Of a DNA stretch of 64,000 nucleotides, positions 10,223 through 63,312 are shown one piece after another. Source of the DNA: Litoreibacter meonggei (GTDB lineage: Bacteria > Pseudomonadota > Alphaproteobacteria > Rhodobacterales > Rhodobacteraceae). Within the stretch, counting starts at the first letter, position 1. Each line of letters begins with the position of its first letter. Location: contig NZ_RCCE01000007.1 in the NCBI RefSeq assembly GCF_003663885.1, forward strand, positions 1 to 64,000. Reading direction: 5' to 3'. The notes below the pieces were generated by a model. The model made no database searches and was not told the origin of the DNA. It saw only the letters and a program-made list of their open reading frames with translations. The position numbers were made by a program, and so were the translations under genes.

Positions 10223-10253
10223 AATCTAAAGCTTCCAGTTGCGGGAAGCTCAA
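10223..10253 (-). promoter_or_regulatory. CueR-type promoter of copA
   Basis: -35 TTGAGC, 19-bp spacer holding GCTTCC...GGAAGC dyad, -10 TAGATT. The over-long spacer with a dyad in it is the hallmark of MerR-family activated promoters. Transcription would start near 10216, just ahead of the copA ribosome site. Confidence 0.8.
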
Positions 10254-10288
10254 GAGGGAAACTGAATTTTTTTGCGGTCAAAAGTGTC

Positions 10289-10319
10289 TTGACCTTCCCG
10301 CCAGTGGAATCAGCAACAG
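10289..10319 (+). promoter_or_regulatory. CueR-type promoter of copZ
   Basis: -35 TTGACC, spacer with CTTCC...TGGAA dyad, weak -10 CAACAG at 19 bp (AACAGT at 20 bp). It is oriented towards the CopZ gene and lies back to back with the copA promoter, 35 bp apart. Confidence 0.72.
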
Positions 10320-10347
10320 TCAGGTCGCGTTGCAAATGGAGACCCTC

Positions 10348-10542
10348 ATGATTTTTTCCGTCCCGAAAATGACCTGTGAACACTGCACATCCGCCATCGA
10401 AAGCGGTATCAAGGCGAAAGACCCATCGGGCGTCATTGCGACCGATCTGGACCATTGCCTCGTCACTGTCCAAAGCACATTGGAACAAGCCGCCGTGCGG
10501 CAAGCCATCGTTGACGCAGGCTACGACGCTTCAGCCGCGTAG
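10348..10542 (+). CDS. copZ: Copper chaperone CopZ (heavy-metal-associated domain)
   Basis: A 64-residue single HMA domain, ferredoxin-like beta-alpha-beta fold, with the Cu(I)-binding motif MTCEHC at the first loop. Such proteins carry cytoplasmic Cu(I) to CopA or to CueR. The ATG at 10348 is preceded by GGAG at good spacing; an ATG 12 bases upstream is also in frame but would leave almost no leader from the CueR-type promoter. Divergent from copA and convergent with a DsbA gene whose stop lies eight bases beyond. Confidence 0.9.
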   Translation: MIFSVPKMTCEHCTSAIESGIKAKDPSGVIATDLDHCLVTVQSTLEQAAVRQAIVDAGYDASAA

Positions 10543-10550
10543 GCTTGTCC

Positions 10551-19566: not shown

Positions 19567-19597
19567 TTGACCTTACCTCACTGGAATGTCGCACAGA
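19567..19597 (+). promoter_or_regulatory. CueR-like promoter of small membrane protein gene
   Basis: -35 TTGACC, 19-bp spacer with CTTACC...TGGAAT half-dyad, weak -10 CACAGA. Start of transcription would fall near 19604, 19 bases ahead of the ATG and just upstream of a GGAGAG ribosome site. Confidence 0.62.
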
Positions 19598-19622: not shown

Positions 19623-19934
19623 ATGTCTGACACTCAAAGCCAAAAACCCACCTGGTCATCGAAACTGATGCACTATGGCATGGTGGTCTGTTGTGCCGTC
19701 ATGCTGTTGCCGATCGCGGCCTTCTTTGTCGCCGGGGGTACAATTGCCGGTCTGTGGACCAACGTCGGGCTTTTTGCGCCGATCGCACTCTGCCTCGGGG
19801 CACACGTTGTGATGCACAAATTGATTGGAAAGTCGTGCCACGGGTCAAAAGATGAGCAGGCGCAAGAGGATACATTGGATGCAGAATTCCGCGATGGACA
19901 GGTTCCTGCTCGGGACATTGCACGCTCGCGCTAA
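19623..19934 (+). CDS. Small membrane protein, DUF2933-like
   Basis: 103 aa with two hydrophobic segments (GMVVCCAVMLLPIAAFFVAGG and LFAPIALCLGAHVVMH) ending in HKLIGKSCHGSKDEQ. The arrangement of Cys, His and Met around the second segment resembles the small DUF2933 proteins found in copper and silver resistance clusters, though it is longer at the C-terminus. It has its own CueR-like promoter and ribosome site (GGAGAG). Possibly a metal-binding or pump-accessory protein; no function is established. Confidence 0.65.
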   Translation: MSDTQSQKPTWSSKLMHYGMVVCCAVMLLPIAAFFVAGGTIAGLWTNVGLFAPIALCLGAHVVMHKLIGKSCHGSKDEQAQEDTLDAEFRDGQVPARDIARSR

Positions 19935-23176: not shown

Positions 23177-23207
23177 GTTCTAAGGTCTGTAGTTGATACA
23201 GGCTCAA
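23177..23207 (-). promoter_or_regulatory. MerR-controlled mer operon promoter
   Basis: -35 TTGAGC, 19-bp spacer with CTGTA...TACAG dyad, -10 TAGAAC, directed at merT. The dyad is not the GTAC-N4-GTAC form of classical Tn21/Tn501 mer. Located between merT and divergent merR, as in most Gram-negative mer operons. Confidence 0.75.
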
Positions 23208-23223: not shown

Positions 23224-23637
23224 ATGAGTAACACAAGCGTGAGATCAATTCGGCGGGGTGATTTGGCACGAGCGACGGGCTGCAACCTGGAAACCATTCG
23301 CTATTATGAGAAAATCGGCATCATGCCGGACCCGCCGCGCAGTACGAAGGGCTATCGAAGCTACGATGATACCCATGTCCGACGATTGAAGTTCGTCATG
23401 CGGTCCCGAGATCTCGGTTTCTCGCTAGAAGAGGTTCGCGGGTTGCTGGGCTTGGTTGATAATCGGATCCAGACCTGCGCCGAAGTCCAAGCCATGGCCG
23501 AAGTACATCTCGGAGAAGTGCGCGCAAAAATAGCCGATCTGACACGGATAGAACGCGTCCTATCGGAAACCGTCGCGCGCTGCACGGGCGATGCGGCACC
23601 CGACTGTGCCATCATTGATGCGCTTTTCGATGCATGA
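23224..23637 (+). CDS. merR: Mercury-responsive regulator MerR
   Basis: 137 aa MerR-family activator-repressor, with the winged helix (NLETIRYYEKIGIMP) and three Hg(II)-binding cysteines at 85 (QTCAEV), 120 and 128 (CTGDAAPDC), spaced as in MerR. Divergent from merTP...A across the dyad promoter. An unusual N-terminal extension of about ten basic residues (MSNTSVRSIRRGDLA) precedes the usual start of the fold. Confidence 0.93.
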   Translation: MSNTSVRSIRRGDLARATGCNLETIRYYEKIGIMPDPPRSTKGYRSYDDTHVRRLKFVMRSRDLGFSLEEVRGLLGLVDNRIQTCAEVQAMAEVHLGEVRAKIADLTRIERVLSETVARCTGDAAPDCAIIDALFDA

Positions 23638-30582: not shown

Positions 30583-30613
30583 TTGACCCTCTACTCGCTG
30601 GAACCATGACAGT
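30583..30613 (+). promoter_or_regulatory. MerR-family promoter upstream of TVP38 gene
   Basis: -35 TTGACC, 19-bp spacer with CTCTA...TGGAA (left half like the cadmium-type, right half like the copper-type sites), -10 GACAGT. It begins 13 bases after the oxidase stop and would start transcription near 30620, ahead of a GAGGGA ribosome site. Confidence 0.6.
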
Positions 30614-30641: not shown

Positions 30642-30722
30642 ATGGATAATGGATCGAACATCGGGCGTCCTTTTCACGTCGACGTTGTAGCGGTTTTCGT
30701 GGCGCTCTATGCGATCGGGTAA
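30642..30722 (+). CDS. Possible 26-aa leader or small membrane peptide
   Basis: MDNGSNIGRPFHVDVV followed by AVFVALYAIG and stop. It has a GAGGGA ribosome site at ideal distance, lies just downstream of the MerR-type promoter and overlaps the start of the TVP38 gene by 14 bases, so it could couple translation. No homology recognised. Confidence 0.4.
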   Translation: MDNGSNIGRPFHVDVVAVFVALYAIG

Positions 30723-31383
30723 CACGCATCCCCGTCACTTGGGACTAGTTCTGATCGCAGTGCTTGCGGCGCTGCTCACTGGCATGTGGGCCTTGGATTA
30801 TTGGCCGAACATAACCCGGGAAACCATCGAGGGCTGGGTTGATGGTGCCGGTCCTTGGGGGCCACTTCTGATTGTTTTGCTGATGATGGGATCAATCGTT
30901 GCAAGCCCCATTCCCAGTGCCCCGATCGCCCTTGTAAGCGGAGTTGCCTATGGCCACATGGAAGGAGCCATCTATGTAGCCATCGGGTCGGAACTGGGTG
31001 CATTGTCAGCGTTCATCATCGCGCGTTACCTAGGGCGCGTCTACGTCGAGCGATGGCTAGGTAACAAGGCCGCTTATGGTTTGCTCGGGTCTCAAAATTT
31101 GCTTACTTTGACGGTGTTTGCTTCCCGTCTTTTGCCCTTCATCTCGTTTGATGCAATGAGCTATGCTGCGGGCCTTAGCCGCCTTCACCTTTGGCGCTTT
31201 TTGATTGCAACACTCGCCGGAATTCTTCCCGCGAGCTTCCTGCTCGCGCATATTGGAGCAGAAGCGATGTCAGGGAGTTTCGACGCTGCTGAGTGGGTCA
31301 TCGTTGGTCTCGGAGTGATGACAGCAACACCGTTGATTCTGGTGGCGATTTTGCGCCCCTCCGACCGAAACAAAGCTTCCTGA
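30709..31383 (+). CDS. TVP38/TMEM64-family (DedA superfamily) membrane protein
   Basis: 224 aa with five or six membrane segments. SNARE-associated/VTT-type motifs: SPIPSAPIALVSGVAYG, IGSELGALSAFIIARYLGR and SRLLPFISFDAMSYAAGLS with a conserved Arg. These proteins are linked to phospholipid or undecaprenyl-phosphate flipping and to envelope stress, and relatives occur in mercury and copper clusters. Its only apparent promoter is MerR-type. The short frame upstream may set its translation. Confidence 0.85.
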   Translation: MRSGNTHPRHLGLVLIAVLAALLTGMWALDYWPNITRETIEGWVDGAGPWGPLLIVLLMMGSIVASPIPSAPIALVSGVAYGHMEGAIYVAIGSELGALSAFIIARYLGRVYVERWLGNKAAYGLLGSQNLLTLTVFASRLLPFISFDAMSYAAGLSRLHLWRFLIATLAGILPASFLLAHIGAEAMSGSFDAAEWVIVGLGVMTATPLILVAILRPSDRNKAS

Positions 31384-31430: not shown

Positions 31431-31461
31431 TTGACCTTCCCACGCAGGAAGCCCCTAGAGT
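31431..31461 (+). promoter_or_regulatory. CueR-type promoter of spare Rieske gene
   Basis: -35 TTGACC, 19-bp spacer with CTTCCC...GGAAGC dyad, -10 TAGAGT. The start codon begins seven bases after the -10, so the transcript is predicted to be leaderless. Confidence 0.75.
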
Positions 31462-31467: not shown

Positions 31468-32028
31468 ATGACAGAGTTGCAAACCGAACAGCATCGCCGG
31501 GATTTTCTCTACTATGCGACTGCCGGAGCGGGAGCAGTTGCCACTGGCTCGGCAGTTTGGCCTTTGATCAATCAAATGAATCCATCTGCAGATGTTCGAG
31601 CTCTCTCAAGCATCCGGGTCGACATTTCGGATGTAGAGCCTGGAACACAACTGACAGTAAGTTGGCGGGGCAAACCGGTCTTTATCCGCCACCGAAATGA
31701 AGAAGAGATCGCTCAGGCGCGCTCCGAGGACGTGTCGTCATTGCCCGATGCAGTGGCTCGAAATCCAAATATTCCTGGTGAAGATCCGGCCACAGACGAA
31801 AATAGAGCACTGCCCGGACATGAGAATTTCTTGGTTATGATTGGTGTTTGCACACATCTCGGTTGTGTGCCCCTCGGTGATGGTGCCGGCGACTTTGGCG
31901 GCTGGTTCTGTCCATGTCATGGATCCCACTATGATACTGCGGGACGTATCCGGAAAGGGCCCGCACCAGAGAACCTTCACATTCCCACATTATCGGTTTC
32001 GGAAGGCATGATATTGACACTGGGCTAG
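31468..32028 (+). CDS. petA: Rieske iron-sulfur subunit of cytochrome bc1 (extra copy)
   Basis: 186 aa with N-terminal anchor and Tat-like [18 protein letters not shown] leader, then the Rieske fold. Cluster ligands Cys128, His130 (VCTHLGC) and Cys148, His151 (CPCHGSHYD), with the disulfide pair Cys133-Cys150; [10 protein letters not shown] ends the domain. It is a normal, apparently functional PetA but petB and petC are not next to it. It stands alone behind a CueR-type promoter and has no ribosome site upstream of ATG 31468. I infer a copper-induced replacement subunit for the respiratory bc1 complex. Confidence 0.92.
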
Positions 32029-32100: not shown

Positions 32101-32131
32101 TTGACCTTCCAGCTACTGGAGGAGCTAGTTG
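32101..32131 (+). promoter_or_regulatory. CueR-type promoter of second copper ATPase
   Basis: -35 TTGACC, 19-bp spacer with the near-perfect dyad CTTCCAGCTACTGGAGG, -10 TAGTTG. Predicted transcription start about 26 bases ahead of the ATG. Confidence 0.75.
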
Positions 32132-39714: not shown

Positions 39715-40474
39715 GACGCGATTCCTCGTGTCTATGATTAGGCAATGCCAAGCCAGGGATCTGCGGCACACTACCTGATCTGATCCGGCGCACGCGGGCG
39801 TTCATCCAATGGCGTATGATATGGCGATACAATATGCCCTTTACGAAGCTGAATGACTGCTGATGAGCGGCGTAGAAGTTGTCGGGCGCGTCGAAAGTAC
39901 CAAAGTCCTGGGCAATACCGGTCTCTTGGATGTAGGTATTGCCCCCCGTCCACTCCACTGGCGGCGCCTGCAGGCAGTCGGTCCCTGCCCCGTAACCGCA
40001 GAGACTGTGTGAATCGGCAAATTTGGATTGCAGCGCTGATAGAAACTCCGCATCCAGAATGAATCCTTCGAGGTTTGCCCAACCCGTCTCCGTCTCCACC
40101 TCAACCCAAGAGTGGACGATCTCATTGGGTGCAAGAGGATAGACGAGCTCTGGCACAACACCCCGTTGCAGCTCTTTGTGGATCGTGAACCCGTGAAGGC
40201 GGCACTGCACACTTACCGCGCGCAACAGGGCCATGAGAAGCGTGCCCTTGGTGTTGCATTGACCAAAACCGTCAGCGAGCACCTCGGCGGCCGAGATGTG
40301 GTCAGCGCGGTTGTACCCAAAGGCAATTTCATTGCGGACGAAATCGTAGACAGCGCCGATCCGGTCATGTTGAGAAAGGGCTTTCCACCCTCGGTCCTCG
40401 ATCAATTGTGCAATCGACGGGTGGTCGAAGTTCAGGATTGGGGTTGTTGCCAACAGCCGATCATTCGCGCTCAT
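39704..40474 (-). CDS. Transglutaminase-like domain protein
   Basis: 256 aa without signal peptide. The papain-like triad is visible: Cys73 in GFGQCNTKG, His121 in EIVHSWVEV and Asp141 in GFILD. Such domains act as cysteine proteases or transferases. The C-terminal 80 residues show two further Cys and no known domain. It is first in an operon with a CDF exporter and a methyltransferase behind a MerR-type promoter; why a peptidase belongs here is unknown. Ribosome site GAGGAG before ATG 40474. Confidence 0.82.
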   Translation of the reverse strand: MSANDRLLATTPILNFDHPSIAQLIEDRGWKALSQHDRIGAVYDFVRNEIAFGYNRADHISAAEVLADGFGQCNTKGTLLMALLRAVSVQCRLHGFTIHKELQRGVVPELVYPLAPNEIVHSWVEVETETGWANLEGFILDAEFLSALQSKFADSHSLCGYGAGTDCLQAPPVEWTGGNTYIQETGIAQDFGTFDAPDNFYAAHQQSFSFVKGILYRHIIRHWMNARVRRIRSGSVPQIPGLALPNHRHEESRHAS

Positions 40475-40503: not shown

Positions 40504-40534
40504 GATGTAATTGCTACAGTCACTATAGATTCAA
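40504..40534 (-). promoter_or_regulatory. CadR/PbrR-type promoter of transglutaminase-CDF operon
   Basis: -35 TTGAAT, 19-bp spacer with CTATAG...CTGTAG dyad, -10 TACATC. Predicted transcription start about 23 bases before the ATG at 40474. Confidence 0.68.
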
Positions 40535-42548: not shown

Positions 42549-42977
42549 CTACGCGCCAATCTCGTCATGGTCGGTCAGGCACTCAGAATGATCGCGCAAG
42601 ACCTCGAGAACCTTGCAGTCCGCGGTATTGCCTCCGCTGCATTCATGGATCATGCGCTTCAGCTCGGTGCGCAGCGCTTTCAATCGATCCATCCTTAGTT
42701 CTACTTGCTTGAGTTGCCGCCGCGCGATGGAGTCTGCTTCATGGCAAGACCTATCTGGGTTGTCGCTCAGATCAAGCAACTCGCGGATCGCTTCAAGTGG
42801 AAATCCCAACTGGCGTGAGTGTCGAATAAAGGACAAGCGGTCGACTTCCGCATCGCCATAGCGCCGTTGCCCCCCTTCTGTCCGGCCCGGTTCAGGCATC
42901 AACCCGATCTGTTCATAGTACCGGATGGTCTGAACTTTTGTTCCGGTCTTCTTTCCCAAGCTTCCAATTGTCAGCAT
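42549..42977 (-). CDS. MerR-family regulator, CadR/PbrR type
   Basis: 142 aa. Winged helix ([17 protein letters not shown]), dimer helix and a metal site with Cys78 (DRSCHEAD), Cys113 and Cys121 (CSGGNTADC), the three-Cys set of Pb(II)/Cd(II) sensors, plus a C-terminal Cys133/His pair (SECLTDH) as in CadR. Cys78 marks divalent sensing, unlike Ser76 of CueR. Divergent from the SCO-Lnt operon. It is the natural candidate for the five CTCTAG...CTAGAG-type promoters in the window. An AT-rich dyad (GTAGCTATAGCTAC) lies upstream and may serve autoregulation. Confidence 0.88.
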
Positions 42978-43082: not shown

Positions 43083-43113
43083 TTGAACCTCTAGCAACTA
43101 GAACATTTAGAAC
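43083..43113 (+). promoter_or_regulatory. CadR/PbrR-type promoter of the SCO-Lnt operon
   Basis: -35 TTGAAC, 19-bp spacer with CTCTAGCAACTAGA dyad, -10 TAGAAC. Start of transcription about 30 bases ahead of the first SCO gene; no other promoter-like gap exists until 47768. Confidence 0.75.
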
Positions 43114-43150: not shown

Positions 43151-43747
43151 ATGAGATTATCAGTGATTCAGAAAGGGCTTTGGGGACTCACCGTGATCGC
43201 GGTTGTGGGGTTCGTTTGGCTGCAGATTTCTGCCAGAGGCGAACGGTCAACTGATGGGCCTGCGTTCCGAGCCGATTTCGAACTGACCGATCATAATGGG
43301 ATGGTCCAAACAGACGAATATCTCGCAGGGCGCTGGATGCTCGTTTTCTTTGGCTTTGCGAATTGCCCCGACGTGTGCCCCACAACTCTGGCGGAGGTAG
43401 CCGCTGTGATGGACGGGCTCGGCTCCGATGCGACACAAGTCCAGCCGCTTTTTATCTCGATTGATCCAGAACGCGACACGCCGCAAGCGCTTGCTGAGTT
43501 TATCCCATATTTTGACGCAAACATCATCGGACTGACAGGCACCGCTGATCAAATTGAGAGAACGTCCAAGACATTTCGCATCTACTACGAAAAGATTGAG
43601 GAAGCCGCTTCGCCCGACGGATACACGATGGGGCATTCGTCTCAGCTGTTTCTCTTTGATCCGCAAGGCGGATATGTCGGTGCCTGGACATATGGCACGC
43701 CGGCAGAGGAGATCCTTGCCGATCTGAAGGCGCGGATGTCGATATGA
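43151..43747 (+). CDS. SCO1/SenC-family copper chaperone, copy 1
   Basis: 198 aa, N-terminal anchor, thioredoxin-like fold with CPDVCP (Cys72, Cys76) and distal His162 (GHSSQLFLF), the full copper-binding set. SCO proteins deliver copper to CuA of cytochrome oxidase or reduce its cysteines. It is first in a ten-gene operon; its stop overlaps the DsbB start by four bases. Confidence 0.92.
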   Translation: MRLSVIQKGLWGLTVIAVVGFVWLQISARGERSTDGPAFRADFELTDHNGMVQTDEYLAGRWMLVFFGFANCPDVCPTTLAEVAAVMDGLGSDATQVQPLFISIDPERDTPQALAEFIPYFDANIIGLTGTADQIERTSKTFRIYYEKIEEAASPDGYTMGHSSQLFLFDPQGGYVGAWTYGTPAEEILADLKARMSI

Positions 43748-44169
43748 GCCGGGTGATGTCAAAAGAGACGGCTTTGACCGCCGCGTGGATCGTCGCTTTG
43801 GGGAGTTCCTTGGCCGTGCTCTATATAGGTGAGGTTCTGGGGCAGGCTCCGTGCAATCTGTGCTGGTTCCAGCGTGCGTTTATGTTCCCTCTGGTCGTCG
43901 TTCTGGGCCTCGGTCTCTGGTGGGAGGATCAACGGGTCGGTCGCTACGGTGTTGCTCTTGCCCTTGGTGGCGCTGCCATCGCGCTTTGGCATCTTGGTCT
44001 CTATACTGGAGTTTTGCCCGAGCCGATCCAACCCTGCACGGCGACTGGCCCATCCTGCACCGGCGACAATCAGCTGTTTCTTGGAATCCCTATCCCGCTC
44101 TTGGCGCTGATTGCCTTTGCGTTTATCGGCTTCTTGTCATTTTTCTCCCTGAAGGAGCCCCGTCCATGA
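43744..44169 (+). CDS. DsbB/BdbC-like disulfide oxidase
   Basis: 141 aa, four membrane segments, quinone-side APCNLCW pair and periplasmic-loop pair (QPCTATGPSC). It is shorter than the DsbB at 3587 and of the BdbC kind. It reoxidises the DsbA encoded immediately downstream, with which it overlaps by four bases. Confidence 0.88.
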   Translation: MSRVMSKETALTAAWIVALGSSLAVLYIGEVLGQAPCNLCWFQRAFMFPLVVVLGLGLWWEDQRVGRYGVALALGGAAIALWHLGLYTGVLPEPIQPCTATGPSCTGDNQLFLGIPIPLLALIAFAFIGFLSFFSLKEPRP

Positions 44170-44825
44170 AAAACAAATCCATCGTCCTATCGGTCCTTCT
44201 TGTTGGGCTTGCCGTCTTTGCCGCCGCGATTTGGTATCAGTCCCGCCCTGGCCCGGTTGCCCAGGTTGATCCGGTCCAACCCGAAATCGCCGAAGCACTC
44301 ATGCGTCCCTACTCACCTATCATGGGACCCGAAGACGCGCCGGTCACAATTGTGGAGTTCTTCGATCCCGCTTGCGAAGCCTGCCGTGCTTTCTATCCGA
44401 TCATAAAGGACATCATGGCGGAACACGGCGATCAGGTCCGCGTCGTATTGCGATACACCCCATTTCATGGCGCGGCATCGGAAGAGGCGATCCGGGTGAT
44501 GGAAGCGGCGCGCATGCAGGACGTATATATTCCGGTCAAAGAAGCGATCCTCGAATTTCAGCCACGATGGGCATCCCACGGTGAACCAGCGCCCGGATTG
44601 ATCCTTGGCATTGCAGAGCAGGCCGGTCTGGACGTAGAGGCCGCACAAAATCAGATGAAAGCGCCGCAGACGCTCGCAATCCTTAATCAGGATCGTGCAG
44701 ATGTGGAGACAATGGGCGTGCGTCAGACACCAACGTTCTATGTGAATGGCAAACCGCTTGACCCGTTCGGAGCCGACGAGCTCCGTGCGCTTGTTGCGGC
44801 CGAGGTCGCTGCAGCAGGGTCGTGA
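44166..44825 (+). CDS. DsbA-family thiol oxidase
   Basis: 219 aa, membrane-anchored, thioredoxin fold with active site CEAC (Cys70, Cys73) instead of the common CPxC, and cis-Pro in RQTPTFYVNG. The closest family is BdbD/DsbA-like oxidases paired with BdbC. It follows DsbB with four-base overlap. It probably keeps SCO and other Cys proteins of this operon oxidised or folded. Confidence 0.9.
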   Translation: MKNKSIVLSVLLVGLAVFAAAIWYQSRPGPVAQVDPVQPEIAEALMRPYSPIMGPEDAPVTIVEFFDPACEACRAFYPIIKDIMAEHGDQVRVVLRYTPFHGAASEEAIRVMEAARMQDVYIPVKEAILEFQPRWASHGEPAPGLILGIAEQAGLDVEAAQNQMKAPQTLAILNQDRADVETMGVRQTPTFYVNGKPLDPFGADELRALVAAEVAAAGS

Positions 44826-44853
44826 CCAAGAGATCATTGAAAGGAATAGATAG

Positions 44854-45318
44854 GTGAAATCTCCAGTTGCCGCAGTGGCCATCGCACTGAGCATATTTTT
44901 GGGTCTACCGATCTCCTCCTTTGCAGGGTCTCAGGACATTGTGGTCGAAGATGCTTGGGCGCGCGCCTCAATCGGCAAAAACCGTCCGGGTGCAGCCTAC
45001 ATGACGGTGCGCAACACAGGCACGGATCCAGTGACCATATTGAGCCTTGAAACACCCTTGGCGATGATGCCAGACATCCACCGAACCACAACCGATGCCA
45101 ATGGCGTTAGTTCGATGGCTCCGGCCGGGGAAATAACAATCGCGCCGGGGGAAGCTGTATCTTTGGAGCCAGGTGGACTGCACGCCATGTTGATGCGGTT
45201 GGAAACCCCGATGGTTGAAGGCGAGAGTTTTTCACTGACACTGACATTTGACGATGGTGGGACAGTGACTGTCGATGTGCCCATCCTAGGCATTGCGGCG
45301 CGAGGGCCGGAGGGCTGA
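44854..45318 (+). CDS. PCu(A)C periplasmic copper chaperone
   Basis: 154 aa with signal peptide and a cupredoxin-like fold. The Cu(I) site is visible as His76, Met88, His110 and Met112 (H-X11-M-X21-H-X-M; LHAMLM), matching the PCuAC motif. PCuAC hands copper to SCO or directly to CuA. Its stop overlaps the start of the second SCO gene by one base. Confidence 0.92.
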   Translation: MKSPVAAVAIALSIFLGLPISSFAGSQDIVVEDAWARASIGKNRPGAAYMTVRNTGTDPVTILSLETPLAMMPDIHRTTTDANGVSSMAPAGEITIAPGEAVSLEPGGLHAMLMRLETPMVEGESFSLTLTFDDGGTVTVDVPILGIAARGPEG

Positions 45319-45944
45319 TGCAGCGACGGCACCTTCTCACTTATATTGGAGCAGCATCCGGTGCGTTGGCTCTCGCCCTATTTGCCGGTTGGTGGCAGGT
45401 GGACGGGCCCGGTGCCCCTGAACCGGTCGCCAAGCGACCGTTACCGTTGACCGAGATGGATTTCCGGATGACCGATCAGACTGGGACGGCTGTCGGCCCT
45501 GAATCACTTCTTGGCAACGCATCCATGGTGTTCTTCGGCTTTACCTACTGTCCGGATGTATGCCCGACCACGCTGTCCGACATCTCCAGTTGGCTCGACG
45601 ATCTGGGTGAGGATGTTGCGCAATTGAATGTTGTGTTCATAACCATCGATCCAAAACGCGACACTGTTGCGGCTATGGCGGAATATGTGAGCTACTTCCA
45701 TCCAGCCATCCAGGGTTGGAGGGGTTCACGGGATCAAACAATGCGGGCCGCAGAGGGATTTCGCGCGAGCTATGAAAAGGTCGCCACCGGTGGTGGTGAC
45801 TATACCATGAACCATACGGCGAGCGTCTTCATGTTCGATGCTGAGGGACAGTTTGCCGGCACAATCGATTATCATGAACCAAGAGAATTTGCGGTGCCGA
45901 AGATCCGCCGCGTCCTCGCAAGAACCGAAGAAGAAACATCATGA
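45318..45944 (+). CDS. SCO1/SenC-family copper chaperone, copy 2
   Basis: 208 aa, Tat-like N-terminus (MQRRHLLTYIG) and anchor, then the SCO fold with TYCPDVCP (Cys78, Cys82) and His166 in MNHTASVFMF. It is related to, but only moderately like, copy 1. Two SCO proteins with a PCuAC between them suggest one may act as copper carrier and the other as thiol reductase. The stop overlaps the peptidase start. Confidence 0.92.
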   Translation: MQRRHLLTYIGAASGALALALFAGWWQVDGPGAPEPVAKRPLPLTEMDFRMTDQTGTAVGPESLLGNASMVFFGFTYCPDVCPTTLSDISSWLDDLGEDVAQLNVVFITIDPKRDTVAAMAEYVSYFHPAIQGWRGSRDQTMRAAEGFRASYEKVATGGGDYTMNHTASVFMFDAEGQFAGTIDYHEPREFAVPKIRRVLARTEEETS

Positions 45945-47314
45945 AGCTGAGATACCTCGTAGCAAGCATCTCCGGAACAAGCCTCGCCGTTGCACTGGTG
46001 CTGGGATTCCAGACCGACTGGAGAAAGGCCCCCGTTCCGGAGGCGCTGGCAGCCGTGTCTGATTGGCAACCGTCACCAATGCGGATGCCCGCACCGCCGG
46101 ATCAACTGCTTTCAATCTACTCGAACGAGACTTTTGAACCTGTAGCAGTCGCATGGAGGGCAGAACCCCCTACTCTGCAATTTACCACTGTCGCTTTGCT
46201 TGAAGTGAGGCCCCCGGTTGAAATCTGGTCAGGGACATTGTCCGCCGGCGAAACCCTAGATGCACTGCTCTCCAAGGCAGGTCTTTCTGCAAGCGACCGC
46301 GCTGAGGTCGCGCTTGCCTTGGCTGCAGAATACGATCTGCGAAAACTGAAACCCGGATACGGCATTGAAGTCGAAACTTCCTTGTCGGGCACCCCACGCC
46401 GCGTCGCGCTTTCGGTGGGCGAAGGTGTTCGGATTGAAGCCACGTTTACAGATGAGATTGCGACACGCAGGATTGTTCCCGAGCCAGACTTGATTGTTCG
46501 CGCCGCCGATACCACCGTTCAGAATTCAATCTTTGCCACCCTTGCGTCAGCGGATGTCCCGGCTCGGTTTGCAGTGGACCTCGCCGAGATGCTGGGCGGC
46601 ACCGTGGATTTCCGACGGGATCTGAAAGGGGGCGAACGACTGCAATTGATGTGGCGTGAAACGATGCTCGAGGATGAAGTGATTGGGCAACCCAGCCTGT
46701 CCTTCGCCGCGCTGACGATCGAAGAGACGCTTTATGAAGTCGTCTGGCCCGACGACAACTCTGGCAACGCCACTATCTTCATTGACGGAGAACTGCTTAG
46801 GGTCTTTGCGCAGCCTGTGAAAGGCGCTCGGCTAAGCTCAGTTTACGGCAATCGCAGGCACCCTGTATTTGGCGACGTGCGCATGCATACCGGGGTCGAT
46901 TTTGCAGCCCGCCATGGGACGCCTGTTTACGCGACAGCACCTGGCCGCATCTCGTTCGTCGGGCGACGCCGCGGTTATGGTCGCGTCGTCGAGATCGCAC
47001 ATGGTTCAGACACCATGACCCGATATGCACATCTCAGCGACGTCCCGGAGGGACTGGGCGTTGGAGCCAGAGTTGCCGCAGGTGACAATATTGGTAGTGT
47101 CGGCGCGACCGGAACCGCAACCGGTCCAAACCTGCACTACGAAGTGCGCGTAGACGGTCGCCCGACAGACCCAATGTCAGAAGAACGGCTTGCCGCAGCG
47201 GCAAGCCAACTCGAGACCAACAGCAGCGTTCTGGTTCGTCTTGAGACTGTTCGCGCGCAGTTCAACGGTTTGCTTGACCAGGAAGTTGCCGCCGCGACTT
47301 CAAAAAGACTGTAG
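45941..47314 (+). CDS. M23-family peptidoglycan endopeptidase
   Basis: 457 aa: N-terminal anchor, a LysM-like/OapA-type region (about 95-200, SAGETLDALLSKAGLS), then the LytM domain with zinc ligands in MHTGVDF and LHYEVRVDG near the end. It cuts peptide cross-links in the cell wall, the partner activity of transpeptidases. Its place in a metal-controlled operon fits with the abundance of L,D-transpeptidases here. Confidence 0.9.
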   Translation: MKLRYLVASISGTSLAVALVLGFQTDWRKAPVPEALAAVSDWQPSPMRMPAPPDQLLSIYSNETFEPVAVAWRAEPPTLQFTTVALLEVRPPVEIWSGTLSAGETLDALLSKAGLSASDRAEVALALAAEYDLRKLKPGYGIEVETSLSGTPRRVALSVGEGVRIEATFTDEIATRRIVPEPDLIVRAADTTVQNSIFATLASADVPARFAVDLAEMLGGTVDFRRDLKGGERLQLMWRETMLEDEVIGQPSLSFAALTIEETLYEVVWPDDNSGNATIFIDGELLRVFAQPVKGARLSSVYGNRRHPVFGDVRMHTGVDFAARHGTPVYATAPGRISFVGRRRGYGRVVEIAHGSDTMTRYAHLSDVPEGLGVGARVAAGDNIGSVGATGTATGPNLHYEVRVDGRPTDPMSEERLAAAASQLETNSSVLVRLETVRAQFNGLLDQEVAAATSKRL

Positions 47315-47317
47315 ATT

Positions 47318-47767
47318 ATGAGACTGCTCACACTCGCAACAGCACTATCATTCGGTCTCGCCGGTCAGGCATTTGCTGAACCCACACCCATAGACGTCAA
47401 AAAGACGAATGGCTGCGGGTGTTGCATTGCTTGGATGGATCATCTCGAGGAGAATGGATTTGCACCGACGGGACAAGACATGTTCGCAGGGCTTCTCGTC
47501 CGCTTCAAACTCGAAAACGGCATCCCGCAACGCATGGTGTCCTGTCATACCAGTCTGATCGACGGCTACGTAATCGAAGGCCATGTGCCTGCGGATGATA
47601 TTCGGAGATTGCTCCGGGAAAGGCCCGACGCAGTCGGTCTCGCAGTGCCTGGCATGCCGCTTGGTTCCCCCGGCATGGATCAAAGCCGCTGGCGTGAGGA
47701 CTATGACGTTTTTCTCATCGAAAAAGACGGATCGACGGAAGTGTTTGCCAGCTATCCCGGCAATTGA
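47318..47767 (+). CDS. DUF411 periplasmic metal-binding protein, copy 2
   Basis: 149 aa with a Sec-type signal, then GCGCC at about 32-36, SCHTS, EGHVPADDIRRLL and PGMPLGSPGM, all as in copy 1 at 18419. It follows the peptidase stop by three bases. Copper binding is presumed from the family. Confidence 0.9.
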   Translation: MRLLTLATALSFGLAGQAFAEPTPIDVKKTNGCGCCIAWMDHLEENGFAPTGQDMFAGLLVRFKLENGIPQRMVSCHTSLIDGYVIEGHVPADDIRRLLRERPDAVGLAVPGMPLGSPGMDQSRWREDYDVFLIEKDGSTEVFASYPGN

Positions 47768-47846
47768 AGGCTGACACCAATAAACCGGAAAAATCCAGTT
47801 ACTCCCCCATCACCTTTGGGTCCCTGAGCAGCATAAAGGCCAGCGC

Positions 47847-48317
47847 ATGAAACACACGATAACTCTTGGGCTGGTAAGCACACTCAGTGCCGTTGTCGTG
47901 GATCAAGCGAGCAAAATGGCTGTCGTCGCAAACGCTTCTACACTGAGCTCCGGTGTTTCCGTCTTTCCTGGTTTCAATCTAGTCTACCATCGCAATGATG
48001 GCGTGACTTTTGGTCTGTTAAATGGTGCGCCATGGTGGGGGCTAGTATTACTGGCAACGGTTGTATGCCTATGGCTCGTAGTCCTGATGTTCAGAACGAA
48101 AGAAGAGGGCGAGGCCGTGGCCTATGGCCTGATCATTGGCGGAGCCTTGGGGAACGTTATTGATCGGATCAGAGTAGGCTCCGTCACCGATTTTCTGGAC
48201 TTTTATGTTTGGGATCTGCATTGGCCAGCCTTCAACCTCGCAGACACAGCTATTTTTTGCGGCGTCGCCCTGCTGCTGACCTGGCCGGGGTTGAAGAAAA
48301 CCCAGACCGAGCAATGA
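47847..48317 (+). CDS. lspA: Lipoprotein signal peptidase LspA, copy 1
   Basis: 156 aa aspartic peptidase with four membrane helices. Catalytic Asp residues lie in GGALGNVIDRI and FNLADTAI; the substrate-loop motif HRNDGVTFG is slightly divergent from the common N-x-G-AAF. It cleaves prolipoproteins after diacylglyceryl addition. Its stop overlaps the Lnt start by four bases. An 79-base gap before it could hold a second promoter, but I see none. Confidence 0.93.
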   Translation: MKHTITLGLVSTLSAVVVDQASKMAVVANASTLSSGVSVFPGFNLVYHRNDGVTFGLLNGAPWWGLVLLATVVCLWLVVLMFRTKEEGEAVAYGLIIGGALGNVIDRIRVGSVTDFLDFYVWDLHWPAFNLADTAIFCGVALLLTWPGLKKTQTEQ

Positions 48318-49891
48318 CAGAAACCGCCGGAGAGAAGGCCGCATTTCGGAAGGTCGCCCTTGTGCTTTCGCTAGCTCATGCCGCAGCAATTGTTTGTCTT
48401 GGTGCGCTGACCGTCCTGACCCTTCCGCCTTTCTCATATTTGATAATTGCTCCGGCGACCTACGGTGGCTTCTTTTTTATTTTGCGAGGGCTTCGCCCAT
48501 TTCGCGCTGCGGTCACGGGTTGGACCTTTGGTCTGGGATATTTCGCCGGTGGGATCTTTTGGATCGCTGAAAGCTTTTTTGTGGATGCGGATCGCTTTAG
48601 TCTGCTTGCCATACCTGCAGTCGCTGGGTTGAGCGCGCTGCTTGCGTTCTTTCCCGCACTGGCCTCTTTCGCGTTTGCTGTGCTGGCGCGGTCGCGATTG
48701 TCTGAAGGTCTGGCCGGCCCTCTGCTCTTTGCAACATGCTGGACCGCCGCCGAATGGTTGCGGGGACATGTCCTGACGGGATTCCCCTGGAACCTGTCAA
48801 GTTATGCGCTCGTCGAATATGAGCCACTGCGGCAACCGGCGGCGTGGATTGGCAGTTACGGTCTCGGCTTTCTCTTTGTTTTTCTGGTTGTTCTGCCAAC
48901 CCATCTGATTGCCAGTCGCAATAGTAGACGTCCGTGGGGCCTGGTCTTGGCGCTTGGAGTTGCCGCAAGCCTTTGGGGCGCGGGGCAAACCCGTCTCTGG
49001 CTTGGCATAGAAGAACCGACGAACATCACTGTGCGGATTGCTCAGGGAAACGTGCCGCAGCAGGACAAGTGGCGTCCGGAACTGCGAGAAGAAACTGTAT
49101 CACGGTACATTGACTTGTCGAGCCAGGGTGACGTTCCTGACATCGTATTGTGGCCTGAAACAGCCTATCCGGGGTTTCTGGACGAGGTTGAAGAAGATCG
49201 TCAGAGGATCATGCGCGCACTCCCACAGACACGCATCTTCATGACCGGTGTGCCGGACCGGGTCGGGGTCGACGCTGACACCATCTACTTCAATACCGTC
49301 CAGGCATATGACCCCAAGGGGCGCAGCCTTGGTGGCTATGCGAAACACAAACTGGTTCCCTTCGGTGAGTATGTTCCGCTTCGAAAATGGCTACCGTTTG
49401 AGCGTCTGACCGAAAGTCTTGGGGATTTTACACCGGGCCCAGGGCCACGCACCTTAGCCTTGCCTGGAATACCTTTTGTTGGCGTTGCGATATGCTATGA
49501 GATCATTTTTCCGGGTCATGTGGTCGACGATGCCATTCGACCGGACTGGATATTCAATGCCACAAACGATGCATGGTTCGGAACATCGATCGGACCGGAG
49601 CAGCATCTGGCGGCCGCACGGATGCGCGCTGTCGAAGAAGGCTTGCCAGTGCTTCGGGCCGCAAACACCGGCATTTCCGCAGTCATTGATGCCAGAGGGC
49701 GCGTCTTGGCCCGCCTAGACCTTGAACATACTGGAGTCCTGGACGTGCCTCTGCCCCCTGCCCTGCCACGTACACTTTATGCGCGCTTCGGCGACTGGAC
49801 GCTTTTGCCGCTGGTTTTGACATGTTGGTTTCTGGGTGTAGGCCTGCCTGCTATCGCAAAGAAGTTATTGGCCACTCGGAAAGGGGTCTGA
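48314..49891 (+). CDS. lnt: Apolipoprotein N-acyltransferase Lnt
   Basis: 525 aa: about seven membrane helices then the nitrilase-like domain with catalytic Glu (WPETAYPG), Lys (YAKHKLVPFGEY) and Cys (VAICYEIIFP). It adds the third acyl chain to lipoproteins. With LspA it forms a lipoprotein maturation pair. ATG 48314 overlaps the LspA stop; the longer frame from 48209 lies inside lspA and is rejected. It is presumably an extra copy of an essential gene. Confidence 0.93.
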   Translation: MTETAGEKAAFRKVALVLSLAHAAAIVCLGALTVLTLPPFSYLIIAPATYGGFFFILRGLRPFRAAVTGWTFGLGYFAGGIFWIAESFFVDADRFSLLAIPAVAGLSALLAFFPALASFAFAVLARSRLSEGLAGPLLFATCWTAAEWLRGHVLTGFPWNLSSYALVEYEPLRQPAAWIGSYGLGFLFVFLVVLPTHLIASRNSRRPWGLVLALGVAASLWGAGQTRLWLGIEEPTNITVRIAQGNVPQQDKWRPELREETVSRYIDLSSQGDVPDIVLWPETAYPGFLDEVEEDRQRIMRALPQTRIFMTGVPDRVGVDADTIYFNTVQAYDPKGRSLGGYAKHKLVPFGEYVPLRKWLPFERLTESLGDFTPGPGPRTLALPGIPFVGVAICYEIIFPGHVVDDAIRPDWIFNATNDAWFGTSIGPEQHLAAARMRAVEEGLPVLRAANTGISAVIDARGRVLARLDLEHTGVLDVPLPPALPRTLYARFGDWTLLPLVLTCWFLGVGLPAIAKKLLATRKGV

Positions 49892-50756: not shown

Positions 50757-50773
50757 TTTGAATGGAGCCGTCT

Positions 50774-55738: not shown

Positions 55739-56653
55739 TCAAGTGCCGTAAACATGGCAAGAATCCAGCTCCCTGTCTGGCGTTTCCATCTCGAGGGTGC
55801 TGTGTTCTACTCCGAACTTATGGATTAGAATTGCTTCGATGTGATCCCTGATGGCTTCGGCTTTAGGCCAATTCGGTACTGTGACAACGACATGAGCGTC
55901 GATGGCCAGTCTCTGTTCCGGGAGCCGCCAGAAGTGTAGATGATGAATATCTTGCACCCCTTCTACGGAAATTATTTGTTGCACAACATCTGCCGCATCC
56001 AGGTTTGATGGCGCTCCAAGCAGCGACGATCTAAGCGCCTCCCCAATACCGCGGAGGGCGAACCAAAGAAGCGCGCCGGACAATAAAACTGCAATAATCG
56101 TGTCAGTTCGCCCGGAACCAAGCAACAAAATAGCTACGCCGCCAGCGAGAACTGGTAGCAAGAACGCTAAACGGTCTGACCATAGGGGCGGTGATGTGCC
56201 GATTTTACGTCGGCGCCACGATGTTGGTGCCGGTTTCGAGAACACCAGTAACTCAATCCCTATCAAGACAGAGACGAGCACCACTATGATCCAGCCTTGC
56301 GCCAGATGAGGGGAATTTAGGCGCATAACGCCGTGGTAAATGACCGAAGCGGATAGCAGTGCCACAGCAACACAACCCGCCAACTCTGTCGCAATTTCCA
56401 ATCGCCCATATCCCAGGACAACGCGGTCCTCTTCCTGACGTTGTGTCAGTCTAGTGGCCACTGAACTCAACAACAACTCGACCACGTCCGAAGCGTAGAG
56501 CAATGCGATGGCAATAAGGGCAAGGCTTCCAGAAAAAAGGCTGCCGACTGACAACGCCAAGGCAATCGGCAAGTACAACCACTTGTTCCGTCGCGCTTGC
56601 CTCTGACAACTGGCGACGCCCGCCAACACTTCGATTTGCTTATCGCTCTTCAT
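55739..56653 (-). CDS. CDF-family transporter with altered metal site
   Basis: 304 aa from ATG 56653, or 342 aa from GTG 56767. Six membrane segments and an intact C-terminal domain (GVQDIHHLHFWRL, EHSTLEME) identify the cation diffusion facilitator family. The transport sites are abnormal: TM2 has LLYASD and TM5 PPLWSD, so both His ligands of the HD/HD site are lost while both Asp remain. It may carry another cation, or act as sensor or partner of an active CDF. A MerR-type promoter stands upstream. Confidence 0.85.
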   Translation of the reverse strand: MKSDKQIEVLAGVASCQRQARRNKWLYLPIALALSVGSLFSGSLALIAIALLYASDVVELLLSSVATRLTQRQEEDRVVLGYGRLEIATELAGCVAVALLSASVIYHGVMRLNSPHLAQGWIIVVLVSVLIGIELLVFSKPAPTSWRRRKIGTSPPLWSDRLAFLLPVLAGGVAILLLGSGRTDTIIAVLLSGALLWFALRGIGEALRSSLLGAPSNLDAADVVQQIISVEGVQDIHHLHFWRLPEQRLAIDAHVVVTVPNWPKAEAIRDHIEAILIHKFGVEHSTLEMETPDRELDSCHVYGT

Positions 56654-56850
56654 GTACCGGCCAAACCTTGTCTGGCCGGGCTCTCTGCTCAACCAGAATA
56701 CTGCCGCTGATCTCCGTGCGTCGATGCACTTTTTGCAACGCAGCAGACGCTCTTCTTCCCTTGTCACTCTCTCTCAAGGACACGATCAGAAGATCTTTGA
56801 AACAGGCGAGATTGCCATCGCAAGTCTGGCTCCTCCACAGCTCAACATAA

Positions 56851-56881
56851 AGTCTACAACCTCTAGCAACTAGAAGTTCAA
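56851..56881 (-). promoter_or_regulatory. CadR/PbrR-type promoter of altered CDF gene
   Basis: -35 TTGAAC, 19-bp spacer with CTTCTAGTTGCTAGAGG dyad, -10 TAGACT. Predicted start near 56844, 77 or 190 bases before the two possible CDF starts. Confidence 0.75.
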
Positions 56882-60622: not shown

Positions 60623-60678
60623 GCGGTCGTTTCTGCTGCCATGCCCTGCTGATGCGAGATCAATTGCCTAATCTGGAC

Positions 60679-60718
60679 AAAAACCCCGGCAACACTTTCG
60701 AGATCTTGGCAGGTTTTT
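60679..60718. terminator. Possible bidirectional terminator
   Basis: AAAAACC (60679-60685) and GGTTTTT (60712-60718) frame an imperfect hairpin between convergent cmtR-like and zntA-like genes. A and T runs on either side would work for both directions. The rest of this 285-base gap shows no gene I can support. Confidence 0.4.
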
Positions 60719-60907
60719 GCCCTTGGCGATTGTGGTTACGACAAGGTCAGTGGTGTGGGGTCGAACGGTCTTTCGCTGTGGTTGGACCAATGGCCGTTTT
60801 GGTTGGTCAGCGCACCATTGACCGAGGGACAATAGTCGACACCTAGCGATCAATCAAATCGATAAGTCGCAAGCCGCCCCTCCCACAGGTTCTAGCCAGT
60901 CACATTG

Positions 60908-63250
60908 TTAGTGTCCGTGCGCCAGCGCGCCCTTGGCCATAGTGGTTCCAATTTGTTTTCCACCACGCGGCCCGGCGTCGTCCTCCCGCGCTTGCAGTAG
61001 CCTCAGAGCATTTGCAACGACAAGCAAGGATACGCCGACATCGGCCGCGATCGCGCCCCACATCGAGGCCATGCCGAAGGCGGTCGCGACCACAAAGACG
61101 GCTTTGGTCGCAAGGGACAGCCCGATGTTCTGTTTGATGATCGACATGGTTCGACGGGAATGGCCAATCAGCCATGGCACCTTGCCGATATCGTCGGTCA
61201 TGAGCGCAATGTCAGCCGTTTCAATTGCGGCGTCCGATCCCACGGCCCCCATAGCGATCCCGTAATGCGCGCGCGCCATTGCCGGGGCGTCGTTCACGCC
61301 ATCCCCGATCATTGCCACGGTGTCGTGGATTGCCACCAGCTCCTCGACCGCTGCGACCTTGTCTTCAGGCAGAAGTTCGGCACGCACCTCGTCTATGCCG
61401 ACTTCAGCGGCCACCGCCCGTGCCGTAGCTGCGTTGTCGCCGGTGAGCATCACAATCTTCTTGACCCCCTGCGCATGTAGACGGGCAACGATCCCCTTGG
61501 CATCGGGCCGGATCCGGTCACGCAGTTCTAGCACTCCATTGACCCCAGTAGCATCGCCGATGGCCACCAATGTACTTCCGGACCCCTCGATCGCGTCGCG
61601 CAACTCTGCTGGAATCGCCGTACCAAGACCCTTTTCCTCCGCAAATCGATCCGAGCCCAACCAGATGGATTGACCGTCCAAATGGCCCTCAAGACCGCGC
61701 CCAGGCACCGTCCGCGTGTTTTCGGCGGCGACGATTTGCATTCCGTCCTGCTCCGCCCGGCTCAGGATCGCCCGTGCGAGCGGGTGTGATGACCGCGCTT
61801 CGAGCGCGGCCGCGCGCATTAGGAGATCGCGTTCGGAAGTCTCGCCAATTGGATAAACCGCAGCGACTTCCGGTTCTCCCATCGTAATCGTGCCGGTCTT
61901 GTCCATGGCCAATGCTGTGGTGCGACCGGGCGCTTCGACATATGCCCCGCCCTTGATCAGCACACCATTGCGCGCCGAGGCGGCAAGCGAGGCGACGATT
62001 GAGACTGGAGTCGAGATCACCAAGGCACAAGGACAGGCAATAACCAGAAGAACCAGTGCGTTGTAGAACCAGAAACCCCAATCGCCGCCCGCGAAAAGCG
62101 GGGGCACCAAGGCAATGACAATGGCGAGCACCATCACAACCGGTGTGTAGATTCGGGCAAACTTTGTCACCCACTGTTCGACCTCGGCACGGCGGGAATG
62201 TGCATCGCCCACCATGCGGATAATCTTGGACAATACCGTGTCGGAGGCGGCTTTCGTTGCCCGCACAGTCAAAGTGCCCTCGCCATTGATGCTGCCAGCA
62301 TAAACATCGTCGCCTGTCTCCTTTGGCACCAATGCACTCTCGCCCGTGATTGGCGCCTGGTCGACGGCCCCTGCTCCATCAACAACTTCTCCATCCAGCG
62401 GAATTCGGTCGCCACCGCGCACGACGAACCGCGCGCCAACAGCTACGGCCGCAGCCGGAACATCGGCTTCAGAGCCATCATCATAGAGCACCCGGGCTGT
62501 TGGGGGTGCGAGATCGAGAAGTGCTGACACAGCGTTGCGCGCGCGCCCTACGCTCCAGCTTTCAAGATAGAGTGAGAGTGAAAAGAAGAACGCCACTGTT
62601 GCGGCCTCAAAAAACTCGCCAAGCCCGATAGCACCGGCCACGGCGACCACCATCAACAGGTTCATATCCGGAGAAAGCCGACGCGCCGACGACCACGCTT
62701 TGGGTGATACAAGCCAAACGCCAAACAGTATTGCAATTGCGAACAGCGCCGCTTCTGCCATGGGCATCGGCGCTTCACCATGGCCCGAGAACAATCCGAT
62801 GGCACCACCGAACCCAGTCTCAATGATGTGGTAGATGAACCCCGCCGCCCAGAAGCCGCCACTGAGCATCGTGAACCATTTTTGTTTTTTCAGATGTGCG
62901 GCCTGATCCGCACTGGCATCTTCGGCATCCCAGGGTTTGGCCGTCATCCCGGTTGTCGCAACCAATTCAAGGATCCTGTCCGAAGACGAATTTGGTCCGC
63001 CATCCAGAACCGTCATGCGCGCATTGATAACGTCAAACGCAAGATACTCTTGGCCACCAACTTCGGGACCCACGACTCGGTTCAGGATCGAAACCTCTTC
63101 GGCGCAATCCAATCCGCTGACATGAAAACTGCGGCCATCCAAGGCTGCCACCTGCGTTGGCTTAATGGCCTCTCCTCCGCAGCAGCTTCCGCTGTCACCC
63201 TTTGTTGCATGTGAATGATTTTGAGCGGTTGGAATCCCGTCATGTGGCAT
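60908..63250 (-). CDS. Zn/Cd/Pb-exporting P1B-type ATPase (ZntA/CadA)
   Basis: 780 aa. The N-terminus has a Cys pair (SGSCCGGEA) and an HMA-like domain with GLDCAEE, then the PIB-2 transport core: [40 protein letters not shown]. The late membrane Lys (SLATKAVFVV) and Asp (AIAADVGVSLL) define divalent Zn/Cd/Pb specificity. His-rich ends (NHSHATK, ALAHGH). It has its own MerR-type promoter and a GAGGA ribosome site before ATG 63250. Confidence 0.95.
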   Translation of the reverse strand: MPHDGIPTAQNHSHATKGDSGSCCGGEAIKPTQVAALDGRSFHVSGLDCAEEVSILNRVVGPEVGGQEYLAFDVINARMTVLDGGPNSSSDRILELVATTGMTAKPWDAEDASADQAAHLKKQKWFTMLSGGFWAAGFIYHIIETGFGGAIGLFSGHGEAPMPMAEAALFAIAILFGVWLVSPKAWSSARRLSPDMNLLMVVAVAGAIGLGEFFEAATVAFFFSLSLYLESWSVGRARNAVSALLDLAPPTARVLYDDGSEADVPAAAVAVGARFVVRGGDRIPLDGEVVDGAGAVDQAPITGESALVPKETGDDVYAGSINGEGTLTVRATKAASDTVLSKIIRMVGDAHSRRAEVEQWVTKFARIYTPVVMVLAIVIALVPPLFAGGDWGFWFYNALVLLVIACPCALVISTPVSIVASLAASARNGVLIKGGAYVEAPGRTTALAMDKTGTITMGEPEVAAVYPIGETSERDLLMRAAALEARSSHPLARAILSRAEQDGMQIVAAENTRTVPGRGLEGHLDGQSIWLGSDRFAEEKGLGTAIPAELRDAIEGSGSTLVAIGDATGVNGVLELRDRIRPDAKGIVARLHAQGVKKIVMLTGDNAATARAVAAEVGIDEVRAELLPEDKVAAVEELVAIHDTVAMIGDGVNDAPAMARAHYGIAMGAVGSDAAIETADIALMTDDIGKVPWLIGHSRRTMSIIKQNIGLSLATKAVFVVATAFGMASMWGAIAADVGVSLLVVANALRLLQAREDDAGPRGGKQIGTTMAKGALAHGH

Positions 63251-63281
63251 GAATTGTCCTCAGATTCGCTATGGTGAAAAG

Positions 63282-63312
63282 TACATACGCCCTACAGCAA
63301 CTAGAGGTTCAA
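63282..63312 (-). promoter_or_regulatory. CadR/PbrR-type promoter of Zn/Cd/Pb ATPase
   Basis: -35 TTGAAC, 19-bp spacer with CCTCTAGTTGCTGTAGGG dyad, -10 TATGTA. Predicted start about 25 bases before the ATG. Confidence 0.78.

Follow-up and report, generated by a model that had tools for sequence, protein, structure and literature searches.

Twelve intergenic MerR-type sites in Litoreibacter meonggei point to a probable mobile metal regulon with an envelope arm

The first 64,000 bases of contig C7 (NZ_RCCE01000007.1, bases 1-64000, here called the window) of Litoreibacter meonggei carry twelve sites with the layout of MerR-type promoters. C7 is 118,113 bp long and makes up 3% of the 3.95-Mb genome. 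The sites are non-random, they recur in relatives before the same types of genes, and those of the cadmium/lead/zinc type are linked to one branch of regulators. Very probably, they belong to a mobile MerR-type regulon on a roseobacter metal plasmid, and this regulon would include, beside pumps, a copper chaperone and mer genes, an envelope arm.

A first-pass annotation, made from the letters without database searches, had proposed twelve promoters with a TTGAxx -35 element, a 19-bp spacer with a central dyad and a -10 element. All twelve are present, six on each strand (plus strand, 5' ends at 10289, 19567, 30583, 31431, 32101 and 43083; minus strand, 5' T at 10253, 23207, 38213, 40534, 56881 and 63312). 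At each site TTGA is followed, exactly 19 bp past the -35 hexamer, by a -10 hexamer whose second base is A, and by position all twelve show the 19-20 bp spacing with a dyad in the spacer that marks MerR-type promoters. The -10 starts with TA at nine sites; the other three are the ones named as weak before, 10289 (CAACAG), 19567 (CACAGA) and 30583 (GACAGT). A dyad was found throughout, with seven bases between its arms (N7) at ten sites but one base shorter (N6) at 19567 and 31431. All sites fall between the open reading frames (ORFs) taken as genes. Their distance to a gene start, described as sensible, is 37-126 bp (site 5' end to start codon) by the longest ORFs, but grows at three sites when the annotated starts of a related plasmid are used (32101, 96 bp; 30583, 156 bp; 56881, ~227 bp).

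Plain counts of TTGA in the window were uninformative (607 versus 574 expected). Matches to a strict pattern with up to three mismatches (19 versus 3.9 expected) were set aside. Since they included reversed copies and unrelated places, a leave-one-out matrix was used instead, with which nine of the twelve sites scored above every non-training position of the window, while 31431, 10289 and 19567 were outscored by 1, 4 and 11 positions, respectively. In 20 shuffled windows, the scores of the nine best sites were never reached. The enrichment over shuffled sequence expected earlier thus held for these nine and for 31431 (reached 0.15 times per shuffled window), but not for 10289 and 19567 (1.3 and 2.8 times), for which the targets (copZ-like and DUF2933 genes, respectively) and the relatives provide support.

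We then scanned the whole genome, as the first-pass annotation had suggested. A strict pattern, derived from the twelve sites themselves, gave 10 matches (8 in the window, 1 at C7:64565 and 1 on contig C6, that is, 9/10 on C7) versus none in the reversed control, and a looser pattern gave 16 (11 on C7) versus 2. The match at C7:64565-64535 is a 13th site on this contig; it lay outside the matrix training, scored 23.0 and stands 92 bp before an L,D-transpeptidase gene (63811-64473). Among 296 genomes of the family, own genome included, 200 contain the strict pattern (reversed control 8/296). As read from translations, the strict match on C6 (position 224283) is copper-type and precedes CopC/CopD-like genes, and a copper-type site at C6:116743, found with the looser pattern, precedes a cytochrome c gene.

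The window matches pDSM107133_e, a plasmid found in Pseudosulfitobacter sp. DSM 107133 and typed as conjugative in PLSDB. The comparison covered window bases 1-25000 (86% of bases covered, at 97.8%), 29000-44000 (98% covered, at 97.7%) and 44000-64000 (89.1%). Nine sites (19567 to 56881, in window terms) recur in the examined part of this plasmid. Gene names used here come from its annotation and from NCBIfam and Pfam family scans of the window proteins.

In relatives, we recorded the first ORF (the longest one starting shortly after the site) at 80 loci. The 63 TTGAA loci, picked by eye, comprise all among the matches listed except one near-duplicate and the window's own; the 17 TTGAC/TTGAG loci were hand-picked, mainly from plasmid-like contigs, and three rows that represent the far side of overlapping loci and have no ORF after the site were excluded. 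Behind the TTGAA sites, Pfam assigned the first ORF to P-type ATPases (16), CDF transporters (13), SCO proteins (12), transglutaminase-like proteins (10), YkuD (6, from four genomes), ArsP (1) and PCuAC (1), and 4 of the 63 matched none of these families. The other 17 sites were followed by P-type ATPases (9), DUF6010 (5), DUF411 (1), VTT (1) and MerR (1). The non-pump targets of the window (SCO operon, transglutaminase, L,D-transpeptidase and VTT protein) thus recur in relatives, and the earlier claim that genes other than pumps are among the targets was borne out. In five relatives, the gene that comes first after a CueR-type site encodes a DUF6010 membrane protein, and the five proteins are near-identical.

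Two operator classes had been proposed, TTCC...GGAA for copper and CTCTAG...CTAGAG for cadmium, lead and zinc. Both are real, but the mer site forms a third class, site 30583 combines the two (CTCTA...GGAAC), and the copper class contains two geometries that had not been separated. As for the regulators, CueR of the window scored 160.4 bits against TIGR02044 (cut-off 147.4) and has the Ser76 named before, together with Cys111 and Cys119. Serine in place of the first metal-site cysteine is a CueR trait, and the protein falls within the CueR group. The protein encoded at 42549 has, in addition to the Cys78 named before, Cys113 and Cys121, all three aligned with the metal-site cysteines of CadR, and its best matches among solved structures are CadR. 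It scored 107.3 bits against the CadR-PbrR family TIGR02047, below the cut-off of 151.45, and we therefore call it only CadR/PbrR-like. In the relatives, 41 of the 63 TTGAA (Cd/Pb/Zn-type) sites are accompanied, no more than 600 bp away, by a divergent MerR-like motif, versus none of the 17 others, and this links the CTCTAG class with the CadR/PbrR-like branch; by their translations, these divergent proteins resemble that of 42549. Site 43083 is the window's own example of this arrangement. The MerR-like protein scored 129.2 bits against TIGR02051 (cut-off 150.85), and its position beside merT supports a mer role. The mercury-class operator of roseobacters (CTGTATCAACTACAG) recurs almost unchanged in relatives.

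The first-pass annotation had three regulators controlling most of the 64 kb. Three holds as a minimum: a second CueR homologue is encoded on contig C5 and may share the copper sites. The genes behind the twelve sites, with operon ends as we took them, make up ~36% of the window. We rejected the claim on both grounds.

For the three classes, the leading candidate regulators are CueR, the CadR/PbrR-like protein and the MerR-like protein. By analogy with the known families, CueR would act at the TTCC...GGAA sites, the CadR/PbrR-like protein at the CTCTAG...CTAGAG sites and the MerR-like protein at the mer site, each sitting on the dyad inside the 19-bp spacer. Upon binding metal, the regulator would untwist the over-long spacer DNA, such that RNA polymerase could use -35 and -10 elements that are otherwise too far apart.

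The second copper geometry follows TTGACC(T/C)TCC-N6-GGAAG (core CTTCC-N6-GGAAG) at sites 19567 and 31431. Exact matches to the N6 pattern are present in 42 of the 296 family genomes versus 11 in the reversed control, so about a quarter of the positive genomes may be chance. From the 30 loci listed, 29 first ORFs were scanned, giving 9 cytochrome c, 5 YkuD (three nearly identical), 3 HMA (copZ-like), 2 Rieske (one being the window's own), 2 DUF2933, 1 DUF305 and 1 enolase-type family protein; the rest matched nothing notable, and several look like wrong ORFs. An A occupies position 27 in 25 of the 31 N6 sites, so that the 19-bp promoter spacing is kept despite the shorter dyad. Position 26 is T in 8 of them; the weak first -10 base looks like a trait of the group, not decay. 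Transcription from 31431, if the promoter is used, is predicted to begin at about the Rieske ATG and would give a leaderless mRNA; in one relative the distance from site to Rieske gene is nearly equal (39 bp). It is somewhat unlikely that a regulator other than CueR, recognizing half-sites one base closer, serves the N6 sites of the window and its relatives. The excess of N6 genomes over the control and their own target set would fit such a protein, but the N6 arms equal those of CueR sites, the A at position 27 keeps the 19-bp register, and copZ-like genes stand behind both types. In addition, six of the seven MerR_1 matches in the genome were inspected; just two of these six belong to the copper type, and both are CueR-like. 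The N6 geometry offers a natural test of how strictly CueR gauges half-site spacing.

The putative envelope arm consists of L,D-transpeptidases and the operon behind 43083, which encodes thiol and copper-delivery proteins, an M23 peptidase, LspA and Lnt. The L,D-transpeptidases pass the Pfam cut-off for YkuD (PF03734) and carry S-x-G-C, the motif of these enzymes. Eleven YkuD matches occur in the genome, five of them on C7 (14822 and 15523 within 14822-16116, 37583-38161, 55099-55611 and 63811-64473). A MerR-type site lies directly upstream of two of the eleven (37583 and 63811, scores 36.5 and 23.0); at the other nine no site was found directly upstream, the best scores being below 0. The 63811 protein has 421 relatives in named genomes, and of the best 80 of these, 54 have a site scoring at least 13 within 200 bp upstream, versus 0/80 in the gene bodies; all eight sequences of the query alignment came from site-bearing loci, and the sample may lean to that lineage. 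Two of the 26 without such a site have weaker look-alikes (9.1 and 5.3), and the other 24 represent 8 distinct upstream regions, of which the four inspected were alike; at one, the preceding gene is DsbB-like by its translation. For the 37583 protein, 16 plasmid relatives were taken from 40 listed of 169 matching records, and 11 have a site scoring >13, some of Cd/Pb/Zn type and some of copper type. All four records taken for the 63811 type (from 40 listed of 672) have the site, as do three further copies among the loci of the 37583 set.

Lnt (314.8 bits versus a TIGR00546 cut-off of 132.9), LspA (126.9 versus 25, PF01252) and the Rieske subunit (223 versus 97.4, TIGR01416) are extra copies of housekeeping proteins. 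The genome encodes two Lnt above cut-off (37% identical), three LspA (two on C7), two Rieske subunits (69% identical) and four SCO proteins (two on C7). On plasmid pDSM14862_f of Sulfitobacter indolifex, a site heads an operon of the same kind with LspA and Lnt plus a ZIP transporter, and behind another site a P-type ATPase gene is followed directly by an L,D-transpeptidase gene. We also looked for metal-tolerant variants of Lnt, LspA and Rieske by counting Cys, Met and His residues in the copies on the plasmid and elsewhere. The counts, which include possible N-terminal overextensions and one LspA perhaps in the wrong frame, showed no single direction, and nothing was drawn from them.

Why would such genes be under metal control? 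Tentatively, and at less than an even chance, we suggest target replacement: promoters of two geometries would induce, beside the pumps, plasmid-borne spares of enzymes that soft metals disable, namely the L,D-transpeptidases, LspA, Lnt, the thiol-oxidation and copper-delivery proteins and the Rieske subunit. Copper has been reported to inhibit LD-transpeptidases (PMC9302775, citing Peters et al. 2018) and lipoprotein maturation (PMC6538781, where cutE harbours lnt). Metal resistance is usually explained by efflux, chaperones and detoxifying enzymes. If Cd/Pb/Zn regulators are indeed wired directly, and in a conserved way, to cell-wall cross-linking and lipoprotein maturation, envelope repair would be a genetic part of resistance that plasmids carry between marine bacteria, and the extra housekeeping envelope genes on these plasmids would be explained.

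An alternative that we consider rather unlikely gives the envelope genes a different role: trapping metal or making it precipitate, an idea put forward for the Pbr system, or changing the wall to hinder entry. It draws on PbrC, a predicted signal peptidase of the Cupriavidus metallidurans pbr locus (PMC1526738), and on a PbrC-like signal peptidase II that was induced >3-fold by zinc in two Mesorhizobium isolates and is discussed as part of metal precipitation (PMC3668242). By analogy, this induction also supports LspA as a metal-regulated gene. An alkaline phosphatase gene at 40635-42110 would fit as well, but same-strand sites before it score at most 6.4 in the scan, the top one being the reverse of 40534. 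Moreover, precipitation alone leaves Lnt, several L,D-transpeptidases and the second Rieske subunit unexplained.

It is distinctly unlikely that the envelope genes are passengers, that is, duplicated housekeeping genes that came to lie downstream of metal promoters in one successful plasmid lineage. The plasmid family does share long stretches and several census loci are near-identical. Yet in 28 loci (22 distinct sequences) where the L,D-transpeptidase gene follows the site at a distance of exactly 92 bp, the site is a conserved block amid variable DNA, although these loci were selected for having it and the conservation partly reflects this selection. L,D-transpeptidases are, in addition, headed by two different operator types. 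Finally, chance sites or ordinary sigma-70 promoters in intergenic DNA without MerR-type control are highly improbable: shuffled windows do reach 10289 and 19567 but never nine of the sites, nearly all genome matches crowd on 3% of the genome with an empty control, and the pattern recurs before metal genes in relatives.

Several observations weigh against a metal regulon with an envelope arm. The strict pattern scores its own source, sites 10289 and 19567 are unexceptional by score alone, both non-copper regulators fall below all NCBIfam cut-offs, and several census loci are near-identical. Three L,D-transpeptidase genes of C7 (14822, 15523 and 55099) have no site directly upstream, and sites are missing at 26/80 relatives of the 63811 protein (at the threshold of 13) and 5/16 of the 37583 protein. 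Copper mimicked the loss of Lgt, not that of LspA or Lnt (PMC6538781), and no Lgt is among the genes annotated in the relative's version of the operon behind 43083.

Table 1. Promoter-like sites, regulators and target genes in the window
Feature	Position	Strand	Basis or remark
CueR, 129 amino acids, Ser76	7286..7675	-	TIGR02044 above cut-off
CopA-like copper P-type ATPase, two CxxC motifs	7685..10195	-	translation; relatives annotate heavy metal P-type ATPase
CueR-type promoter, N7 dyad	10223..10253	-	58 bp before in-frame copA ATG at 10195
CueR-type site, weak -10 CAACAG	10289..10319	+	59 bp before copZ-like ORF
copZ-like copper chaperone, 64 amino acids, MTCEHC	10348..10542	+	translation reading
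CueR-type site, N6 geometry, weak -10	19567..19597	+	before DUF2933 gene
DUF2933 protein	19623..19934	+	family scan
Hg-class MerR-type promoter	23177..23207	-	before mer operon, 60 bp to ATG
MerR-like regulator, divergent from mer operon	23224..23637	+	under every NCBIfam cut-off
Mixed CTCTA...GGAAC site, weak -10	30583..30613	+	126 or 156 bp before VTT/TVP38 gene
VTT-domain (TVP38/DedA) membrane protein	30709..31383	+	family scan
CueR-type site, N6 geometry, -10 TAGAGT	31431..31461	+	37 bp before Rieske ATG
Rieske iron-sulfur subunit (bc1), second copy	31468..32028	+	TIGR01416 above cut-off
CueR-type promoter	32101..32131	+	before P-type ATPase
Heavy-metal P-type ATPase, copper group best	32164..34509	+	family scan
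L,D-transpeptidase (YkuD), SSNGC motif	37583..38161	-	family scan
Cd/Pb/Zn-type promoter	38183..38213	-	before L,D-transpeptidase
Transglutaminase-like, CDF transporter, PEMT-type methyltransferase	38246..40474	-	relative's annotation, family scan
Cd/Pb/Zn-type promoter	40504..40534	-	before transglutaminase-CDF-PEMT operon
CadR/PbrR-like regulator, Cys78, Cys113, Cys121	42549..42977	-	family scan, alignment to CadR
Cd/Pb/Zn-type promoter	43083..43113	+	divergent from CadR/PbrR-like gene
SCO, DsbB, thioredoxin-fold, PCuAC, SCO, M23 peptidase, DUF411, LspA, Lnt	43151..49891	+	same strand, taken as one operon
CDF transporter	55739..56767	-	start may be inner ATG, 228 bp from site
Cd/Pb/Zn-type promoter	56851..56881	-	before CDF transporter
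P-type ATPase, Zn/Cd/Pb group	60908..63250	-	family scan
Cd/Pb/Zn-type promoter	63282..63312	-	before P-type ATPase
Second L,D-transpeptidase, 3' part (whole gene 63811-64473 of C7)	63811..64000	-	under 13th site

Two further stretches of the window carry related genes. At 23663-27925 lie cytochrome c maturation genes (CcmI, CcmH-like, DsbE-type and CcmF-like in the relative's annotation), with no upstream site among the best 40 matrix scores of the window. A further LspA adjoins a cation transporter at 58861-60308; on related plasmids, the corresponding stretch has an annotated ArsR/SmtB regulator.

The promoter type, CueR, the mer operon and the pump targets are known. Non-pump targets as such were also predicted before by Permina et al. 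2006 (PMC1526738), namely cytochromes, glutathione S-transferases and glutaminase, and CueR sites before Vibrio cytochrome genes are predicted there as well. Searches of open-access papers, which miss most subscription titles, brought up no report of L,D-transpeptidases or Lnt under MerR-type metal promoters. In a 2025 review (PMC12729407) copper appears only in a reference title, and PMC4447125 does not mention transpeptidase, signal peptidase, lspA or SCO.

Compared with other mer operons, the one described here shares the regulator divergent from merT and the mer genes ending in merA (by the relative's annotation), but its operator core is TGTATCAACTACA, whereas the proteobacterial consensus is TCCGTAC-(4)-GTACGGA (quoted in PMC1526738). 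With CueR/HmrR regulons the copper part of the window has in common the 19-bp spacer and the ACCTTCC...GGAAGG dyad (signals as given in PMC1526738), a CueR above the NCBIfam cut-off, and copA and copZ-like targets. It differs by the additional targets Rieske, DUF2933 and VTT protein (in relatives also L,D-transpeptidase) and by the N6 geometry. Furthermore, the survey in PMC1526738 placed cueR systems on chromosomes only, whereas C7 is plasmid-like. CadR/PbrR regulons (pbr of C. metallidurans, cad of Pseudomonas) likewise have a divergent regulator with a transporter, either a P-type ATPase or a CDF protein, and a signal peptidase gene (PbrC, PMC1526738). In contrast to these, several sites of the window stand apart from the regulator gene and head L,D-transpeptidases, the transglutaminase operon and pumps, and the operon behind 43083 adds SCO, DsbB, PCuAC and Lnt to LspA.

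The Escherichia coli L,D-transpeptidase gene ycfS, which is under Cpx control and inducible by copper, would be a precedent by way of another regulator. The envelope copper response of this species (Cpx/NlpE, with cutE being lnt) also links copper with the acylation of lipoproteins and with repair of the envelope (PMC6538781), but its regulator is of a different type, and the genes described here are plasmid-borne extra copies. Relative to the known systems, what is new is a probable regulon that is large, lies on a plasmid and has an envelope arm, together with a second copper operator geometry.

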